DNA of 61,167 nucleotides from Magnetococcales bacterium (GTDB taxonomy: Bacteria; Pseudomonadota; Magnetococcia; Magnetococcales; UBA8363): contig JADGCN010000006.1 in assembly GCA_015228975.1 (NCBI GenBank), positions 1-61,167 on the forward strand, in the 5' to 3' direction. The notes under the pieces are model-generated. The model was not told the origin of the DNA. It searched no databases and saw nothing but the letters and a program-made list of their open reading frames with translations. Below are positions 36,217-45,489 of the stretch, piece by piece. A program made the translations under genes and the position numbers. Within the stretch, counting starts at the first letter, position 1. Every line of letters begins with the position of its first letter.

Positions 36217-38127
36217 TCACGGCTTTTGATTGAACCGACACTCCTTGGCAAACCATGCCATCACCTGCTGAAACTCGGTTACCTTCCAACCTTTGTTAAT
36301 GAACCTTTGACAATCCATCATTAGTATTGTTTCAAGTTGCGATTCATTTTGGGCTAGAGAGACCGCTTCCCGATACAGCGTGTATGCCGTTTTTTCATCC
36401 CCTTGCAAAAGATGGGCATGGCCAAGATCGACCGTCCAATCCCACATTTCTGGAGCAAGTTCGTGTGCCTTGCGTGTGTTTTTCTGTCCCTCGGCAAATT
36501 TTCCTTGCTGGAGGAGGATTCTGCCAATCTTCCCATAGGGAATACTCAGATGGAATGAAAATGGCTTTTGGTTGGGAAATGGATTGAACACTTGTTCGAT
36601 AATGGCAATTTCCTGTTGATAATTGTGAATAGCCCTATCGAGATCCCCCTTTATCATCAATACATTGCCTATCTTGTGATGACTCACCGCAAGATCGCGT
36701 TGCCACTCGGTGTTCGTTGGATCCAGATCGGCAAGACGCTTACAAATCGCCATAGCTTCAAGATAGGAAGCCAGAGCCTTATCGGGATCATCTTTTTTCA
36801 ACAATACTTCGCCTATCTTGTTATGGCTCACCGAAAGGTCGCGCTGCCACTCGGTGTTCGTTGGATCCAGCTCAGCCAAACGCTTACTAATCACCATAGC
36901 TTCATGATAGGAAGCCAGAGCCCCATCGGGATCATCTTTTTTCAACAATACATCGCCTATCTTGTTATGGCTCACCGCAAGATCGCGCTGCCACTCGGTG
37001 TTCTTTGGATCCAGCTCAGTCAAACGCTTACGAATCGCCATAGCTTCATGATAGGAAGCCAGAACCCCATCGAGATCATCTTTTTTCAACAATACATCGC
37101 CTATCTTTTCATGACTCACCGAAAGATCGCGCTGCCACTCGGTGTTCGTTGGATCCAGATCGGCAAGACGCTTACAAATCTCCATAGCTTCAAAATAGGA
37201 CGCCATAGCTAAAGACAGATCACTCTTTTGCAAAAATACGTCGGCTATCCTTTCATGGCTCACCGAAAGATCGCGCTGCCACTCGGTGTTCTTTGGATCC
37301 AGCTCGGCAAGACGCTTACAAATCTCCATAGCTTCAAGATAGGACGCCATAGCTAAAGACAGATCACCCTTTTTCTTAAGTACGTCGGCTATCTTGTTAT
37401 GACTCACCGAAAGATCGCGCTGCCACTCGGTATTCTTTGGATCCAGCCCGATCAAACGCTCCATCATTTTCTTCGCATCTTGATAGGCCGCCATAGCACC
37501 AGGCAGATCACCCTGACGCACACACACGTCGCCTATCCTAAGATGGTTCATCGCAATATTGCGCATCGAACCGGCGTTCGTTGCCGAAAGCTCGGACTTG
37601 GGTACCACACCTCCCTTGCGACCCAAACCAAAGCCAACGCGATAAAGATCGGGCATGTCGATTCGACCGTCTTGGCGGATCACAAAAATTCCTAGCAACT
37701 CCAAATCCTTGCGAACACCGTTCCAGCTCTCGACATGTTGCGGCGGCAAGTTTCCCGATAAAAAAGATTTTGGCCCATTAGGAAATGTATCTTCCCAAGC
37801 ATCATTGATTTCATGATAATCACAAGGGACGTTTTTTCCTCGGAGTGCAGCCATAACGCCTGGCACCCAAGGATCGTCTTCCGCCACTTGGTTAACGCGG
37901 ATTTGGGAAGCCTTCTGGATACCACGTTTGAGACTTTCATAATGCAGTGCCAACGGATAATCGGCGTAGTTCGCCATGCTGTCCTCGGCAGCACTGGAGA
38001 TAGCCGCAAGAAAAGAACGTGGAGAAGTCTGACCATGACCATCCGCCAGATGGCTGACACTCCACACATAGGGGACACCACGACGGGCATCTTTGCCCAT
38101 CTTATTTCCGGCAAGAGCCTCAAACAA
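36217..38127 (-). CDS. TPR-repeat half of a frameshifted NTPase-TPR protein
   Basis: About 636 residues. The first part (LFEALAGNKMGKDARRG... to about 170) is not recognised; it continues the NTPase domain encoded just upstream in another frame. Residues about 190-500 are six to seven tandem 48-residue repeats built on the pattern LDPKNTEWQRDLSVSHNKIGDVL, a TPR-like helical repeat, and a divergent helical tail follows. No proper start codon with a ribosome site exists: the frame is cut off upstream by a TGA near 38173. A one-base shift between about 38150 and 38170 joins it to the NTPase frame, giving one protein of about 920-930 residues. Downstream partner of a KGGVGR ATPase. Confidence 0.8.
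   Translation of the reverse strand: MFEALAGNKMGKDARRGVPYVWSVSHLADGHGQTSPRSFLAAISSAAEDSMANYADYPLALHYESLKRGIQKASQIRVNQVAEDDPWVPGVMAALRGKNVPCDYHEINDAWEDTFPNGPKSFLSGNLPPQHVESWNGVRKDLELLGIFVIRQDGRIDMPDLYRVGFGLGRKGGVVPKSELSATNAGSMRNIAMNHLRIGDVCVRQGDLPGAMAAYQDAKKMMERLIGLDPKNTEWQRDLSVSHNKIADVLKKKGDLSLAMASYLEAMEICKRLAELDPKNTEWQRDLSVSHERIADVFLQKSDLSLAMASYFEAMEICKRLADLDPTNTEWQRDLSVSHEKIGDVLLKKDDLDGVLASYHEAMAIRKRLTELDPKNTEWQRDLAVSHNKIGDVLLKKDDPDGALASYHEAMVISKRLAELDPTNTEWQRDLSVSHNKIGEVLLKKDDPDKALASYLEAMAICKRLADLDPTNTEWQRDLAVSHHKIGNVLMIKGDLDRAIHNYQQEIAIIEQVFNPFPNQKPFSFHLSIPYGKIGRILLQQGKFAEGQKNTRKAHELAPEMWDWTVDLGHAHLLQGDEKTAYTLYREAVSLAQNESQLETILMMDCQRFINKGWKVTEFQQVMAWFAKECRFNQKP
36645..37530 (-). repeat. 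144-bp tandem repeats encoding TPR-like units
   Basis: A block beginning TGCCACTCGG recurs at 36701, 36845, 36989, 37133, 37277 and 37421, exactly 144 bases apart each time. Neighbouring units are nearly identical in DNA, so the array is recently expanded or kept alike by recombination. Copy number may vary between strains. Confidence 0.92.
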
Positions 38128-38993
38128 ATGGCGCTGGTAAAGCGACTCTGACCAACCGAACGCAATAATGCCTCACGGGGGGGGAGAATGGACGTCACCA
38201 TGGCACGCAGGCACTCCCCATGGCCATCGTTTGCATTGATGAGGCGCTGCCACAACATGGCGTGTAAATCATGCCGTTCCCAGGTCAACCCGGCCTGGGT
38301 AGCCAAAATCTTTGACGCATCAACGAACGAAGTAACCGACTCATCCTTTTGATCGGGACGCAGAAAAATTTTGGCACTTAGTCGGGAAAAATCACGCAAC
38401 CACAAGGCTACTTGCAGCAAGTCACGAATGATACGTTTCATCGTGAACCAGTCTTGACTTGTGCGATCCAGTGCATCGAAAAGGAGGAGACCAAACTGAT
38501 TTGTGTTGGCAAGCTTTGTATTGGCAGTCTCGGCAATGGTTGCAACTGGTTCAGGATTTTGCACCACCCACTGCACTGTTGCGTCCCAAGAGTCTGTTGG
38601 AACCTGTTTTTCAATCAAACCTGCCAACCAACGCACGATCACGGCACGCCAAACGTCATGGGGTTGGTGATGGCCAAGCAGAGTCTTGAAAGTTCCCCGG
38701 TCGGGATAGGCGTTGATGTTCGGTTTGGCAGAATAACCGATACGAATGGTTGTGTGTGTCAATTCGGGTACAGACACCCCGATCTGCTGGCGCAGTGCGT
38801 CATCGCTTAAAGCTGCCGTCCAGAACGACTTGCCGACGCCGCGTGCGCCCACCACAAGCACAGCCTCACGGGCAAGTGCCTTGCGATGCATAGGGGGAAT
38901 GCAGAGCGTGCCAGGGCGTGGGATATCGCCCGTGTTGTCCAACTCAAACGGTGCCGCAAGAATGGCCTGGCGAATATCTTGCGCATTCGTCAT
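37692..38993 (-). CDS. P-loop NTPase half of a frameshifted NTPase-TPR protein
   Basis: Only the first 280 or so residues are natural. MTNAQDIRQAILAAPFELD leads to a P-loop VVGARGVGKSFWTAAL (about 47-62) and a candidate Walker B LLLFDALDRT (about 173-182), an arrangement of STAND/AAA-like NTPases. After LPPREALLRS (near base 38160) the frame becomes Trp/Cys/Arg-rich nonsense, while the natural continuation is found in the overlapping frame that leads into the TPR repeats. This is a one-base deletion, or a sequencing error. The gene overlaps the upstream ParA-like gene by four bases (ATGA), so the proteins are made together. Confidence 0.78.
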   Translation of the reverse strand: MTNAQDIRQAILAAPFELDNTGDIPRPGTLCIPPMHRKALAREAVLVVGARGVGKSFWTAALSDDALRQQIGVSVPELTHTTIRIGYSAKPNINAYPDRGTFKTLLGHHQPHDVWRAVIVRWLAGLIEKQVPTDSWDATVQWVVQNPEPVATIAETANTKLANTNQFGLLLFDALDRTSQDWFTMKRIIRDLLQVALWLRDFSRLSAKIFLRPDQKDESVTSFVDASKILATQAGLTWERHDLHAMLWQRLINANDGHGECLRAMVTSILPPREALLRSVGQSRFTSAICLRLLPEIRWAKMPVVVSPMCGVSAIWRMVMVRLLHVLFLRLSPVLPRTAWRTTPIIRWHCIMKVSNVVSRRLPKSALTKWRKTILGCQALWLHSEEKTSLVIIMKSMMLGKIHFLMGQNLFYRETCRRNMSRAGTVFARIWSC

Positions 38994-40282
38994 GTCTGGT
39001 TCTCCCGTTCCAGGACGTTCTTCAGAAAACCAAGCAGCTTTCCATAAACCAGCTCCACTTCGTCCTCATCCAATTGCTGCATACGCTGCTGTAAGTTCAA
39101 CAAACCAAACCAGCCCCGGTTCCAGCGGATCGGCAACGGTGCGTGCGGGGCGGTATCGTCGTCTTCTTCATAGTTCCAACCGCTGACAGCACCCAGCGAG
39201 ACATTATCGTAAATATCCGCGAATAATAGGTAGGAACTGGTGCAAATTGCTGCAATGTATTCAGGTCTGCGTTCGTCATCCGGTACGAGTCCGGCAACCA
39301 ACTGCAAGCGAGTTCGCATCTCCGTGATGACACCGAGTTGTTGCCAATACGAAAACAAGGTACGATAACCCGTCCAGGTTTGCTGGCCCTGAATGGCAAA
39401 CATCAAGATTGTGTCAGCACCCAAATGGGTCACGCAGGTGGCGGCCACTTCGTCAATGCCGGCGCGAGAATCGATCAGGATGACATCTGGTTTAATATCC
39501 GATTCAAGCTGATCGATCAAACGTTTCAGGCGCTTTGACCAAGCTTCGGGAGGCTTCCGAAGTGTGGTCTTCGGCATCCACACCCGACCCAGCTTGGAGA
39601 CATAATCACCAGGTTCTTTACCGTGTGCCGGTACGAAATTAATTTGGCCATCAGTCGGTAAATCGCTCATCGCAATGAGATCCTTCAACACCGCATCCCC
39701 GTTGTCAACCAAGTCTTCCACCAACCAGTCGGTGATGCCGTACTTGGGTTGCCGTTCAGGAGACAACAAGGAGCTTGAAAGTCCCGGCGATTCCAAATCC
39801 AGATCCAACACCAGCACCCGCTTTCCCTGCTTGGCCAACGCCCAGGTACAGGCTGCCAAAGCGGTTGAGCGTCCCACACCACCTTTGATGGAAAAAAATA
39901 CAATGCGCGGGGCTCCAGTGGAAACCTCGGCAATGGTCTCCCATCGCGATTCGCTTGCCAAACGATCAATGACCCTGACGTTCTCGAACCCCGGTAAAAC
40001 AAAACCCACAATCCCTTGGGTTGCATCTTCGGGCTCGTACTCAGACAGGATGCCTGTAGCAACCGGATAAGCGTGGGGTGCGATACGTTTCGCCAGGGCG
40101 CTGTAAAGATCCTCGATTTGTTTGTATCGTGCATCGTTGGCGGCATCTTTCTCCGACACGATGAAGCGTACCCGTCCGTTAAGGTCGCGGTTGATCAGCA
40201 ACCACTCCAATGTATCGACCATGTTATGATGCTCTTCCAGTATTTCGATGGCGTTGGACACGATTTCGTCAAAGGTACTCAT
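38990..40282 (-). CDS. ParA/MinD-like ATPase with KGGVGR P-loop
   Basis: A 430-residue SIMIBI-class ATPase. An N-terminal helical domain (about 1-120) of unknown function precedes the ATPase core: deviant Walker A FSIKGGVGRSTALAA (about 130-144), VLVLDLDLESPGLSS and DVILIDSRAGIDEVAA. The usual GKT/S of ParA proteins is replaced by GRST. Such KGGVGR variants are encoded beside NTPase and TPR proteins in several bacteria and are thought to belong to conflict/defence systems rather than to plasmid partition; I infer that here from gene order. It overlaps the small upstream gene and the downstream NTPase gene by four bases each. Confidence 0.82.
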   Translation of the reverse strand: MSTFDEIVSNAIEILEEHHNMVDTLEWLLINRDLNGRVRFIVSEKDAANDARYKQIEDLYSALAKRIAPHAYPVATGILSEYEPEDATQGIVGFVLPGFENVRVIDRLASESRWETIAEVSTGAPRIVFFSIKGGVGRSTALAACTWALAKQGKRVLVLDLDLESPGLSSSLLSPERQPKYGITDWLVEDLVDNGDAVLKDLIAMSDLPTDGQINFVPAHGKEPGDYVSKLGRVWMPKTTLRKPPEAWSKRLKRLIDQLESDIKPDVILIDSRAGIDEVAATCVTHLGADTILMFAIQGQQTWTGYRTLFSYWQQLGVITEMRTRLQLVAGLVPDDERRPEYIAAICTSSYLLFADIYDNVSLGAVSGWNYEEDDDTAPHAPLPIRWNRGWFGLLNLQQRMQQLDEDEVELVYGKLLGFLKNVLERENQT

Positions 40283-41226: not shown

Positions 41227-43251
41227 TCATTGAATACGCATACCGGGTTGTGCCCCGGGATCGGGGGAGAGCAGGGCAGGGGCACCGGAACCATCGCTCG
41301 CCGCCAGGATCATCCCTTCGGAGACGCCAAACTTCATTTTTCGCGGTTGCAGGTTGGCCACCAGCACCACCAAACGACCGGGCAAACTTTCAGGGGTATA
41401 GGCGGCGCGAATCCCCGCCAGCACGGTACGTTTTCCCAAAGCACCGACATCCAAAATCAACCGCAATAATTTATCGGCACCTTCCACGGTTTCGGCGTGG
41501 GTGACCTTGGCGACCCGAAGATCAACGGTCATCAATGTGTCCAGGGTGATTTCCCTGGGGGATGTTTTGCCATCGGGAGAACCAAGCGCAACAGGAGGCG
41601 GGGGAGGGGAGGGGATGGTTTCCCGGGAATCTTCGAGCATCGCGTCAACCTTTTTGGGATCGACCCGTTGCATCAAGGCGCTGAACGGCTGGATGGTAAT
41701 GCCGACCAACGGTTCCAGCACTTCGGGCCAGTTCATGTCGTTCAGATTGAGAAAAACGCGGGTTTTTTCCGCCATGACGGGGAGGACGGGATTAAGCTGA
41801 ATCATGAGCAACCAGAAAAGATTCAAAGCAACAGTACAAGTGTCCTGTAATTCTTCGAGGCGTTTTTCCTTGGCCAGGATCCAGGGTGCCCGTTCTTCGA
41901 CAAAGCGGTTGGCTTTGTCGGCCAGGGCCATGATGGCACGCATTGCCTTGGCATATTCCCGGTCCTGATAATGGAGGGCGATGGTTCTGGCTTCCGTTAA
42001 GAAAAGTTGGAACAAGCCCTGGTCATCGGGATAACGATTGGAAAGCGTGCCGTTGAACTGTTTGTGGATGAAGCCGGCGGTGCGGGAGGCCAGGTTGACA
42101 CACTTGCCGACGAGGTCCGAATTGACCCGTTGGATGAAATCGTCAAGGTTTAGATCAATGTCATCGACCCCTTTGGTCAACTTGGCGGCATAATAATAGC
42201 GCAAATATTCACAATCGAGATGTTTGAGATAGCTCCTGGCGGTGATAAAGGTTCCCCGGGACTTGGACATTTTTTGGCCGTTGACGGTCAGGAAACCATG
42301 GGCGAAGACGCCGGTGGGGGTTCGGAAACCGGCACCTTTCAGCATGGCGGGCCAGAAGAGGGTATGGAAATAAAGGATGTCTTTACCGATGAAATGGTAG
42401 ATTTCCGCTTGATCGGGCTGCCGCCAATAGCGGTCGAAATCGATACCGCGGAGATTAAAATAGCTCAACGAGGCCGCCATGTAGCCGATGGGGGCATCGA
42501 GCCAGACGTAGAAGAATTTCCCCGGGGCGTCAGGGATTTCAAAGCCGAAATAAGGGCCATCGCGTGAAATATCCCATGCTTTCAAACCTGCTTCAAACCA
42601 TTCGGCCAACTTGTTGGCCATGGAAACCTGCAAGGCGCCGGATCGGGTCCATTCTTTGAGGAAGGCCTCAAAATTGCCCAAATTAAAGAAATAATGTTCC
42701 GACTCCCTTTGTTCGGGAGCCGTACCGCACAGGGCGCAACGGGGATGTTTGAGGTCGAGTGGGGAATAGGTGGCGGAACAGGATTCGCAGGCATCGCCGT
42801 ACTGGTCGGGGGTACCACAGGAGGGACACTGGCCACGAATGAACCGGTCTGGGAGAAACATGCCATCGTTGGGACAATAGGCTTGCATGACCGATTCGGT
42901 GAAGATATGTCCCGCCTGGCGATTGGCCAGGTAGACCTGTTCGCTTAACAGGCGGTTTTCCTCGGAGTTGGTGGAATGGTAATGGTCGAAACCAATCTGG
43001 AAATCATGAAAGTCAGTTTTATGTTCAACGTGCATCCGGGCGACCAATTCTTCCGGGGAGATGCCTTCGTTGCGAGCGCGAATCATGATGGGGGTGCCAT
43101 GGGTATCGTCGGCGCAAAAATAGAGGCATTGGCGCCCACGAACTTTATGAAAACGGACCCAGATATCGGTTTGAATGTATTCCACCAGATGGCCCAGGTG
43201 GATGGAACCGTTGGCATAAGGCAAGGCACTGGTGACCAGGATGGGACGCAT
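41227..43251 (-). CDS. metG: Methionyl-tRNA synthetase
   Basis: A 674-residue class I aminoacyl-tRNA synthetase. The HIGH-type motif is [13 protein letters not shown] at the N-terminus and [10 protein letters not shown] lies mid-protein. A connective-peptide zinc domain has two knuckle pairs (CPSCGTP..CESC and CALCG). The C-terminal 100 residues are an Arc1p/EMAP-type tRNA-binding OB domain ([20 protein letters not shown]), giving the long dimeric form as in E. coli. It is transcribed away from the dif-like hairpin and the HD-GYP gene. Confidence 0.97.
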
Positions 43252-43318: not shown

Positions 43319-43333
43319 CGGCAAGACTTGCCG
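43319..43333. repeat. Short palindrome beside the dif-like pair
   Basis: CGGCAAG-A-CTTGCCG is a perfect 7-bp inverted repeat 11 bases left of the dif-like pair. It could be a protein-binding site or part of a larger folded structure. Confidence 0.5.
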
Positions 43334-43344
43334 CAACAAACGCG

Positions 43345-43372
43345 ATTTAACATAACGTCGTTTATGCGACCT
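43345..43372 (-). other. dif-like Xer recombination site, inverted copy
   Basis: Read on the minus strand: XerC arm AGGTCGCATAA, spacer ACGACG, XerD arm TTATGTTAAAT. The XerD arm is identical to the E. coli dif arm; the XerC arm shares the CGCATAA core. The spacer differs from that of the partner site, so the pair folds with a mismatched centre. Confidence 0.65.
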
Positions 43373-43403
43373 GAAGGTACCCTGAGGCCTTTGCGGCCCA
43401 GTT

Positions 43404-43431
43404 GAGTCGCATAAGATGTATTATGTTAAAT
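43404..43431 (+). other. dif-like Xer recombination site, direct copy
   Basis: XerC arm GAGTCGCATAA, spacer GATGTA and XerD arm TTATGTTAAAT. Against E. coli dif (GGTGCGCATAA, TGTATA, TTATGTTAAAT) the XerD arm matches 11 of 11 and the XerC arm 8 of 11. It lies 31 bases from an inverted copy, and together they form a hairpin with 27-base arms (43344-43370 with 43406-43432). Confidence 0.72.
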
Positions 43432-43433
43432 CA

Positions 43434-43737
43434 TGGCTGCAACGAAATAGAAACCATTGAACATGGTTATTGAAAATGTTACATTTTGACACATCAGTTA
43501 ACCTGTGGTTGCAACCATCCGATAAGGAGTTCCAAGAGGGAAATCGGATGCGACGCATCAAGTTTCTGTCTTGACGAAGAATGTTCGGAATTTAAGGCGC
43601 GGTTTGCTAAGGAGTGCGCGTGACGGTCTTTGAGACATACACATTCTAATAGTGAAATATCCGGCAAAATCGTTTACCATGTCGGCCTATATGGCTGTTT
43701 GTCTTTTTTCCTCGACCGGATAAATTCAGGAAACGCT
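43434..43737 (+). promoter_or_regulatory. Upstream region of the HD-GYP gene
   Basis: About 300 bases without a gene. It contains a perfect 12-bp palindrome TGGTTGCAACCA (43506-43517), a candidate operator, and an AT-rich stretch around 43460-43485. AGGA lies shortly before the HD-GYP start. Confidence 0.35.
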
Positions 43738-45489
43738 ATGGGTACGGACGACCGAACAACAAACCAATTGACACCCCGCGATGCTGGTTGTAATGCTGGT
43801 TGTAATGCTGGCCGTAATGCTGGCTGTGACGCACCCTCGCAACCGCATGCGTTACCAGTTGATCTGGAGGATGTCAGCAATCTCCTGGCCCGGGTTGATA
43901 AGCTCAACCAGTTGGGTATTGCCCTGTCTTCCGAACATGATACCAAAAAATTATTGGAAAATATTTTACTTGGTGCCAAAGATTTAACCAATGCCGATGC
44001 CGGCACCATGTATACCAAAACCGAAGAAAATTCTTTGAAATTTCAGATTATTCGCACCGATTCCCTGAAAATTGCCATGGGGGGGACAACCGGCGTGGAT
44101 ATCCCCTTCCCTCCCCTGCCCCTCTACAAAAGTGATGGCGAACCCAATTTGCAAATGATTGCCGCAGCGGCGGCACTCCAGGATATCACCATCAACATTC
44201 CGGATGCCTACGAGGCGGAAGGCTTTGATTTTACAGGGACAAAAAAGTTTGACCAGATGACCGGCTACCGTTCGAAATCGTTCTTGACGGTACCCTTGAA
44301 AAACCATGAACGCGAAATCATCGGTGTTTTGCAACTCATCAACGCCAAGGATTTCCAAACTGGGGAGATTCGACCGTTTTCCATCAGAGACCAACAGTTG
44401 GCCGAATCATTGGCCTCGCAGGCGGCCATTTCCATGACCAACCAGCGGTTGATCGAAGATTTGAAAAAATTGTTTGAATCCTTCATTAAAACCATCGCCA
44501 ACGCCATCGACGACAAATCCCCCTATACGGGCGGCCATTGTGAACGGGTGCCGGTATTGTCGGAAATGTTGGCCCGTGCGGCGGCTCGTTCTGATATCGG
44601 GGAACTCAAGGATTACCATCCCAGCGAAGATGATCTCTATGAATTGCGTATCGCCGCGTGGATGCACGATTGCGGCAAGGTGGTCACCCCGGAATATGTC
44701 GTGGATAAAGCAACCAAGTTACAAACCATTTACGATCGCATACACAGTGTCAATGCCCGCTTTGATGTGTTGAAACGCGATGCCGAAGTGGCGTTTTTGC
44801 GGCAAAAAATCGCCGCCATGGAACAGGGCGATGTGACGCGAATTCCCGAACTCGAAGCGGCCTATCACCAGCAGTTGGCCCAAATCCAGGATGATCAAAA
44901 ATTTGTTCAGACCACCAACATAGGTGGCGAATTCATGACCGCCGACCGCAAAAAACGCATTCAGGAAATCGGGGAGAAAAAGTGGGTCAATTGTGATGGC
45001 GAATTGGTGAATTTTTTGACCGAGGATGAAATAAAAAATCTGTGTATTGCCAAAGGCACATTGACCGATGAAGAGCGGGAAATCATCAACCACCATGTGG
45101 TGGCCACCAAAAACATGTTGAAAAATCTCAATTTCCCAAAACAGTTGAAGCGTGTTCCCGAAATGGCGGGATCGCATCACGAAACGATGAACGGTAAAGG
45201 ATATCCTGAGGGTTTGACCCGGGACCAAATGTCAATTGGGGCGCGTATCATGGCGATTGCCGATGTGTTTGAAGCCTTGACCGCCTCTGATAGACCCTAC
45301 AAACCAGCCAAAACCCTATCAGAGTCCTTGAAAATCCTGGGATTCATGAAAAAAGATCAGCACGTCGATCCCGACCTGTTCCAGGTATTCATCAAAGAGC
45401 AGGTGTATCTGGAGTATGCGCAACAATATTTGGATCCCAAGCAAATCGACGAAATCGTTCCTAAAAAAATTCCAGGTTATGAGCCTTGA
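43738..45489 (+). CDS. GAF/HD-GYP cyclic-di-GMP phosphodiesterase-like protein
   Basis: A 583-residue cytoplasmic protein. A short Cys/Asn/Ala/Gly repeat (GCNAGCNAGRNAGCDA, about 15-30) from a 12-bp DNA repeat precedes a GAF domain (about 55-235; GYRSKSFLTVPLKNHEREIIGVLQLINAKD). Then comes an HD-GYP domain with HD at 310-311 (MHDCGK), HH at 452-453 and GKGYPEGL at 486-493, so the metal and signature residues are kept. Between the HD and the HH helix there is an extra segment of about 110 residues, partly coiled-coil. c-di-GMP breakdown is inferred from the family. The start at ATG 43738 is preceded by AGGA; the upstream open frame is not family-like. Confidence 0.9.
   Translation: MGTDDRTTNQLTPRDAGCNAGCNAGRNAGCDAPSQPHALPVDLEDVSNLLARVDKLNQLGIALSSEHDTKKLLENILLGAKDLTNADAGTMYTKTEENSLKFQIIRTDSLKIAMGGTTGVDIPFPPLPLYKSDGEPNLQMIAAAAALQDITINIPDAYEAEGFDFTGTKKFDQMTGYRSKSFLTVPLKNHEREIIGVLQLINAKDFQTGEIRPFSIRDQQLAESLASQAAISMTNQRLIEDLKKLFESFIKTIANAIDDKSPYTGGHCERVPVLSEMLARAAARSDIGELKDYHPSEDDLYELRIAAWMHDCGKVVTPEYVVDKATKLQTIYDRIHSVNARFDVLKRDAEVAFLRQKIAAMEQGDVTRIPELEAAYHQQLAQIQDDQKFVQTTNIGGEFMTADRKKRIQEIGEKKWVNCDGELVNFLTEDEIKNLCIAKGTLTDEEREIINHHVVATKNMLKNLNFPKQLKRVPEMAGSHHETMNGKGYPEGLTRDQMSIGARIMAIADVFEALTASDRPYKPAKTLSESLKILGFMKKDQHVDPDLFQVFIKEQVYLEYAQQYLDPKQIDEIVPKKIPGYEP

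Follow-up and report, generated by a model that had tools for sequence, protein, structure and literature searches.

Most bacteria carry a single dif site, at which fused sister chromosomes are resolved, and two opposed copies are an arrangement usually expected to cause trouble. Why, then, would a chromosome hold two such sites side by side? The question is raised by a 61,167-nucleotide stretch of a Magnetococcales genome (GenBank assembly GCA_015228975.1, contig JADGCN010000006.1, positions 1 to 61,167), hereafter the window. It contains two dif sites, A (the second site) and B (the site with the canonical core), which lie 31 bp apart with their XerC arms facing inward and their XerD arms facing outward (Table 1).

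Two opposed dif sites at the chromosome terminus

Both sites carry the inner CGCATAA and the same XerD arm, TTATGTTAAAT, and they are unlike at 6/6 core bases. A scan of the window for CGCATAA-N6-TTATGTTAAAT with ≤3 mismatches returned exactly sites A and B, each with 0 mismatches, where 0.05 matches would be expected by chance; both agree with chromosomal dif at 18/18 scanned arm positions. The first-pass annotation of this DNA had described a near-canonical dif, an inverted second site 31 bp away with the same XerD arm and another spacer, and 27-base arms pairing at 21 positions. All three descriptions were borne out: the inverted repeat (43344–43370 and 43406–43432) is complementary at 21/27 positions (78%), and the region folded as single-stranded DNA gives z values of −4.86 (+ strand) and −4.12 (− strand). 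A search for further Xer sites with the same arm, also suggested there, found exact TTATGTTAAAT arms at sites A and B only in the source genome (3.75 Mb, 234 contigs, 75.9% complete). The core of site B, GATGTA, is also the dif core in four other genomes of the order (G017, G018, G025 and G029). The locus is not a direct repeat of dif-like sites of the kind left by integrative mobile elements exploiting Xer (IMEX), as the sites are inverted and no gene lies between them.

The pair sits at the chromosome terminus, a point that the annotation had left open. The answer comes from the strand bias of G-rich motifs, and GC skew adds weaker evidence. A motif resembling the FtsK-orienting polar sequences (KOPS), GGGNAGGG, points toward the pair at 18/18 positions in the window and away from it at 0, and the polarity switches between 1.8 kb to the left and 0.7 kb to the right of the pair. 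In eight contigs with a twin taken together (G000, G001, G004, G005, G006, G015, G036 and G040), 171 copies point toward the pair and 36 away from it (p 3e-22 against 50:50); the reversed control motif GGGANGGG is less biased in the same contigs (148 and 79; Fisher p 5e-5). GC skew, which the annotation had proposed to plot, would be weak evidence if taken alone. Fitted change-points lie 2–10 kb from the pair in five of the eight contigs (6.1 kb in G015, 3.3 kb in G004, 4.5 kb in G005, 2.2 kb in G006 and 10.1 kb in G001) and are less favorable in the others (55 kb in G040, 14.5 kb in the window, and 10.0 kb with unchanged sign in G036); the cumulative GC-skew maximum of the window lies 4.4 kb from the pair. 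The terminus assignment thus follows from the switch of G-rich motif polarity at the pair together with the synteny of the locus across the order. The methionyl-tRNA synthetase gene metG and/or an HD-domain gene adjoins dif in 38/41 order loci, the exceptions being G010, G044 (a 4.1-kb contig) and one of the two G012 contigs that carry dif. KOPS-like motifs also occur in groups of two or three at a distance of 0.5–1.8 kb from the pair; these groups lie toward the HD-domain gene in five genomes (the window, at 44104–44121, G001, G004, G005 and G006) and toward metG in G040.

XerD-family genes are present in 24/24 and 21/21 genomes searched, above the curated cut-off in 23 and 17, and the FtsK gamma domain is present in 7/7 genomes tested. 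In the source genome, XerD (354.9 bits) and FtsK gamma (90.5 bits) both score above their cut-offs, and an XerC-like gene reaches 288.8 bits with the XerC model (cut-off 335.15) and 244 bits with the XerD model.

Distribution and conservation of the second site

The order was searched in 48 genomes for single sites on both strands, a design that does not favor outward pairs, and dif flanks were read for 39 of them, giving 41 loci. The nine genomes outside this set are G003 and G021, with no site in the search, and G024, G027, G038, G043, G045, G046 and G047. An opposed pair with outward XerD arms is present in 17/39 genomes: seven of genus g1, including the source genome, G008, four of family f9 and five of genus g17. 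Inner gaps between the 24-mers of these twins are 38–88 bp. This comparison with relatives, which the annotation had called for, also bears on its idea of a terminus with an inserted partner. The terminus half is supported by polarity, synteny and the presence of FtsK-gamma, XerD and XerC-like genes. The partner, in contrast, does not have the look of an insertion: the pair recurs in 17 order genomes, its surroundings are host genes in syntenic order, and the segment separating the sites is non-coding. An assembly artifact is unlikely, since inner segments and flanks differ among separate records of metagenome-assembled genomes (MAGs). The pair does break assemblies: it is split over two contig ends in G041, and possibly also broke that of G042, where the locus is cut at a contig end.

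Six further genomes have an extra XerD arm near dif, inverted and with a degenerate XerC arm in G010, G022 and G025, and in direct orientation in G011, G020 and G026. In G026 (C3:14420-14561, L064) and G020 (C77, L073), a single dif is followed by two same-orientation XerD arms, each within 135 bp; one of the two in G020 has a mismatch. Arms within ≤250 bp of dif at ≤1 mismatch comprise 17 outward in the twins and 8 outward in the six half-site genomes. These eight all lie within 135 bp, one with a mismatch, and are not independent, two genomes supplying two each. One inward XerD arm was found, in G018 at 253 bp from where the dif site starts, against an arm background of 0.037 per 500 bp. At more than 400 bp from dif, 657 kb of flanks hold only 2 more XerD arms; elsewhere in the genomes there are up to 8 (G011 and G026).

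Ten twins, six of family f1 and four of f9, have asymmetric cores. In all ten, the second core reads NNN[AG]CG, with C16 and G17, and the canonical core has T16 and A17. Within a genome, positions 13, 16 and 17 are common to both sites in 0 of the ten, position 12 in 7, position 14 in 1 and position 15 in 4. Arms differ from consensus at 10/180 positions in the second site and at 1/180 in the canonical site. The two families are sisters in the XerD tree (97/89), and between them the second-site arms are 88% identical, against 23% for the 30 nt outside and 26% for the 30 nt inside, both at the level of chance. The second site and its core end have thus been kept while their surroundings turned over, and the best reading of these alignments is that the second site is maintained by selection in two families. 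Over all twins, 16/17 have a second site whose inner XerC arm carries at most one changed base. The arm sets differ at would-be pairing positions in 9/17, which suggests that the hairpin arises incidentally from the presence of two binding sites for proteins.

The orientation of the locus varies. With metG as the frame, the canonical core lies on the metG side in G001, G004, G007 and the four f9 genomes, and on the HD-domain side in G000, G005 and G006. Among the non-twins that have metG or the HD-domain gene next to dif, 16 direct the XerD arm toward metG; the 3 that direct it toward the HD-domain gene (G018, G025 and G029) belong to family f12. In G025, an XerD half-site facing metG lies beside a dif of opposite facing, as would be expected if dif orientation had switched via a twin stage. 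Xer-driven flipping of the inner segment would fit the core-side differences, but these segments are too diverged to judge: they are alike at p≤0.005 in 8/136 pairs, 6 of these 8 within one genus, and the best hint (G001/G006, 13/16 nt inverted) falls outside that list. The XerD tree would fit one origin with losses as well as several gains. It has 36 rows, with many deep forks open; G025, G026, G018 and G029 were lost by the extraction rule, and G009, G016, G023, G036 and G038 were left out as having no XerD above the cut-off. G012 carries two single dif sites (C88:31014 and C303:4025; cores TTAACA and GATATA), only the C303 one at the metG locus; contamination or a second replicon may be the cause.

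A scan of 84,980 species genomes with one exact outward-facing pattern (inner gap 33–63; records very near the window may be omitted) gave nine loci, namely eight Magnetococcales MAGs, which are eight of the 17 twins and not additional, and one gammaproteobacterial MAG (Piscirickettsiaceae/Methylophagaceae). In a phylum sample of 398 genomes, 48 of this order and 350 outside it, two sites within 100 bp were found in none of the 71/350 outside genomes with a 0-mismatch match, a search that would miss a mismatched partner. An extra exact XerD arm was absent in 30/30 outside loci, one from each of 30 of these 71 genomes, read with ≤1.5 kb of flank, two of them shortened by a contig end.

The Methylophagaceae MAG G398 has cores TGTATA and TTCTTG, and its relative G405 has TGTATA and TTGTTG with one changed base in an XerC arm; G is the last base of both second cores. 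They are 2/40 genomes searched at ≤1 mismatch (G398 counted in the 40). To the right of the second site, both have genes without a close match in seven loci of six further relatives, some of those in G405 having matches of 29–36% identity, so an element may be inserted beyond the second site. In G398 (C10, right of 108287; L034 4556-7963), what looks by eye like a Wadjet/Mks-like operon lies ~0.3 kb from the second dif, with four genes in a row, including JetD-like and SMC-like ones, and no match in the compared relatives. The Methylophagaceae relatives do not bear out a general rule of outward arms: one-mismatch near arms in 30 loci are 4 outward and 3 inward, with ~2.1 expected by chance, the two twins being excluded from the count. 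G404 has two dif sites (C11:18483 and C16:129234), each with a one-mismatch outward XerD arm 83–95 bp away.

Readings of the opposed pair

In E. coli, FtsK is reported to act on XerD from the XerD side alone, and a single dif offers its XerD end on one side only; a twin with outward XerD arms would therefore be open to FtsK from both replichores. We propose, giving the idea an even chance, that the pair is a chromosome-dimer-resolution locus built as a twin, which would present XerD first to FtsK from both replichores and recombine in like pairs only. Each site would bind XerC at its inner arm and XerD at its outer arm, and FtsK, guided by converging KOPS-like motifs, would meet an XerD arm first from either replichore. 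The cores in this clade are predicted to be mutually incompatible, with T16A17 facing C16G17 at the XerD exchange point. This difference at the XerD-proximal core end would block exchange between neighbors and leave exchange between sister copies unaffected, so that recombination would join each site to its counterpart on the sister chromosome and spare the inverted neighbor. More tentatively, and with the balance tilting against it, we suggest a class of termini with bidirectional dimer resolution, in which two self-compatible, mutually incompatible dif sites would have been selected in Magnetococcales and, independently, in Methylophagaceae. A bidirectional terminus, if true, would break with the principle that more than one dif per chromosome is not tolerated.

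Several observations weigh against twin dimer resolution. Cores are identical in 7/17 twins (G002, G008 and five g17 genomes); incompatibility is thus not a feature of every twin, and crossing over between the wrong partners would lead to inverted or fused chromosomes. Even in the asymmetric twins, the first core base is common to both sites in 7/10. The second arm is absent in 14/39 order genomes, among them the single-contig G018 (4,719,581 bases), and the six genomes with extra XerD half-sites only have arms that could not recombine and hint at a binding role. In the window, the control motif GGGANGGG is itself polarized (16 toward, 2 away), so that the polarity there is not KOPS-specific and reflects a general strand bias of G-rich motifs, still switching at the pair. 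A gene above the XerC cut-off was found in 0/5 genomes tested, which makes the XerC identity of the XerC-like gene putative. All eight of the twins found in named records are MAGs, and the one-sided action of FtsK is taken over from E. coli.

The half-site genomes suggest that an outward XerD arm may be of use by itself, which leads to another reading, in which the second site is a landing pad for XerD (or XerCD), and outward XerD stops or unloads SMC or the FtsK motor without recombination. Its appeal lies in the six order genomes where the only extra arms near dif are outward XerD arms that lack an XerC half or have a degenerate one (in G026 and G020, two such arms stand in tandem), and in the description of XerD as a sequence-specific SMC unloader in the accessible text of PMC12322038. 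The nearly intact XerC arm of the second site in 16/17 twins, the retention of C16G17 in asymmetric twins, which a pure XerD pad would not need, and the scarcity of XerD arms farther than 400 bp from dif make it unlikely, though still worth taking seriously. A functionless palindrome, produced when template switching made an inverted copy and held similar since by copying through the hairpin, is a good deal less probable. Copying between the arms also happens, judging from the identical cores of seven twins and from G002 (C110:17220-17306, L043), where a perfectly matched inverted repeat, TCCAGAGACGAGACC, continues for 15 nt outside the two XerD arms and looks like the trace of a recent copying of one half of the locus onto the other; the outer flanks in G032 also resemble each other by eye. 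The seven identical-core twins may represent copying without selection. However, copying would erase the distinct core end that is kept in ten asymmetric twins of two families, in which flanks are at chance identity and second-site arms equal the consensus at 170/180 positions.

The annotation had also raised a scar of a Xer-using element and a folded attachment site of CTX type. The pair does have the form of the CTX-phi attP, two opposed dif-like sites able to pair within a single strand (there 90 bp apart, according to the accessible text of PMC4246890), and the Methylophagaceae twins have unmatched DNA past the second site, in one case with the operon described above. CTX-type integration, however, depends on the core next to the XerC arm, where the two sites of the window share 0/6 bases and the asymmetric twins at most the first base, in seven of ten, with positions 13, 16 and 17 common in none. 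The XerD arms are intact, unlike in the described CTX attP. The flanks hold host genes across the order, the neighbors in the window are not those of a filamentous phage or prophage, a viral collection gave 0 matches to the opposed pair at inner gaps of 33–63 and 64–94, and the extra DNA near dif in G040, G026 and G042 is host-like by eye. An attachment site or scar, whether of CTX, VGJ or TLC type, is therefore highly improbable. An RNA hairpin, terminator or leader of metG or the HD-domain gene, which the annotation had named as the ordinary alternative, would account for the strong fold and the position between divergent genes. A search of Rfam with a limit of E 1 gave no match, pairing is disrupted by arm differences that do not co-vary in 9/17 twins, and metG lies anywhere between about 0.1 and 2.3 kb away in twins while the Xer arms are what is conserved; we give this reading almost no weight. 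Both the phage and the RNA readings fit poorly.

The several Magnetococcales families that retain an opposed pair offer a natural test of why a single dif is the norm, of whether FtsK has to come from the XerD side and of what the core contributes.

Neighboring genes and comparison with known systems

The pair lies between the divergent metG (−) and GAF/HD-domain (+) genes, and its neighbors in the window are host genes (metG, HD-domain, CHASE2, SAM_MT and HrpA). The HD-domain gene has, in the part encoding its N terminus, a 12-bp tandem repeat (43781–43828) made up of three 24-nt copies that overlap. On the − strand at 36217–40282, ParA-like ATPase, AAA-type and TPR proteins are encoded in adjoining and overlapping frames, of which the AAA and TPR frames overlap by >400 bases and look frameshift-split.

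Table 1. Features at and around the opposed dif pair in the window.
Feature	Position	Strand	Basis or remark
dif site A (second site)	43345–43372	−	Direct reading and exact pattern match
Site A, XerD arm	43345–43355		TTATGTTAAAT
Site A, spacer	43356–43361		ACGACG
Site A, XerC arm	43362–43372		AGGTCGCATAA
Inter-site segment	43373–43403	.	31 bp; conserved among near relatives only
dif site B (canonical core)	43404–43431	+	Direct reading and exact pattern match
Site B, XerC arm	43404–43414		GAGTCGCATAA
Site B, spacer	43415–43420		GATGTA
Site B, XerD arm	43421–43431		TTATGTTAAAT
metG, methionyl-tRNA synthetase, conserved left neighbor	41227–43251	−	NCBIfam NF001100, 892.2 bits; adjoins dif in 35/41 order loci
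GAF/HD-domain gene (called HD-GYP type), conserved right neighbor	43630–45489	+	Pfam PF13487, 140 bits, and PF01590; synteny; first in-frame ATG at 43738
Two overlapping KOPS-like GGGNAGGG	41601–41613	+	Aimed at pair; nearest on left
Three overlapping KOPS-like GGGNAGGG	44104–44121	−	Aimed at pair; nearest on right

A conserved compact pair of opposed dif sites was not found reported in the accessible part of the open-access full-text literature, and the accessible text of Carnoy and Roten (2009), which gives a Magnetococcus dif homologue, does not mention a pair. Each site resembles the E. coli-type dif/XerCD/FtsK system in being a 28-bp intergenic site with a consensus XerD arm and a 6-bp core at a polarity switch, in a genome with XerD, XerC-like and FtsK-gamma genes; the locus departs from that system, and from the single dif expected per chromosome, in having two opposed copies 31 bp apart, the second with a core unlike the first. 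Karaboja et al. reportedly described XerD-dependent SMC unloading in B. subtilis in 2021. That system is similar in having an extra XerD-binding sequence at the terminus, here a predicted one; unlike it, the sequences here lie within about 135 bp of dif and mostly come with an XerC arm, and a role for SMC is putative.

Two putative opposed dif sites have been described in Lactobacillus delbrueckii ssp. bulgaricus within a 47.5-kb inverted repeat, and the authors expect such a pair to complicate dimer resolution (El Kafsi et al. 2017; accessible text of PMC5345009). In contrast, the pair described here is compact, occurs in several families and, as a rule, has only the sites themselves repeated. 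More than two dif sites in a dimer are likewise regarded as a hazard (PMC10331603, in its accessible part). CTX-phi attP1/attP2 (PMC4246890, PMC5357621) likewise consist of two dif-like sites in opposition that are capable of intrastrand pairing, whereas the present pair is chromosomal, with no phage found, intact XerD arms and 6-bp cores. For the core pattern, the closest comparison is with dif1 and dif2 of Vibrio cholerae, which have divergent cores and in which G17 of dif1 matters for tight FtsK control (Val et al. 2008; accessible text of PMC2533119). The second sites described here have G17 in 10/10 asymmetric twins; unlike dif1 and dif2, which reside on two chromosomes, they are neighbors of the canonical site on one.
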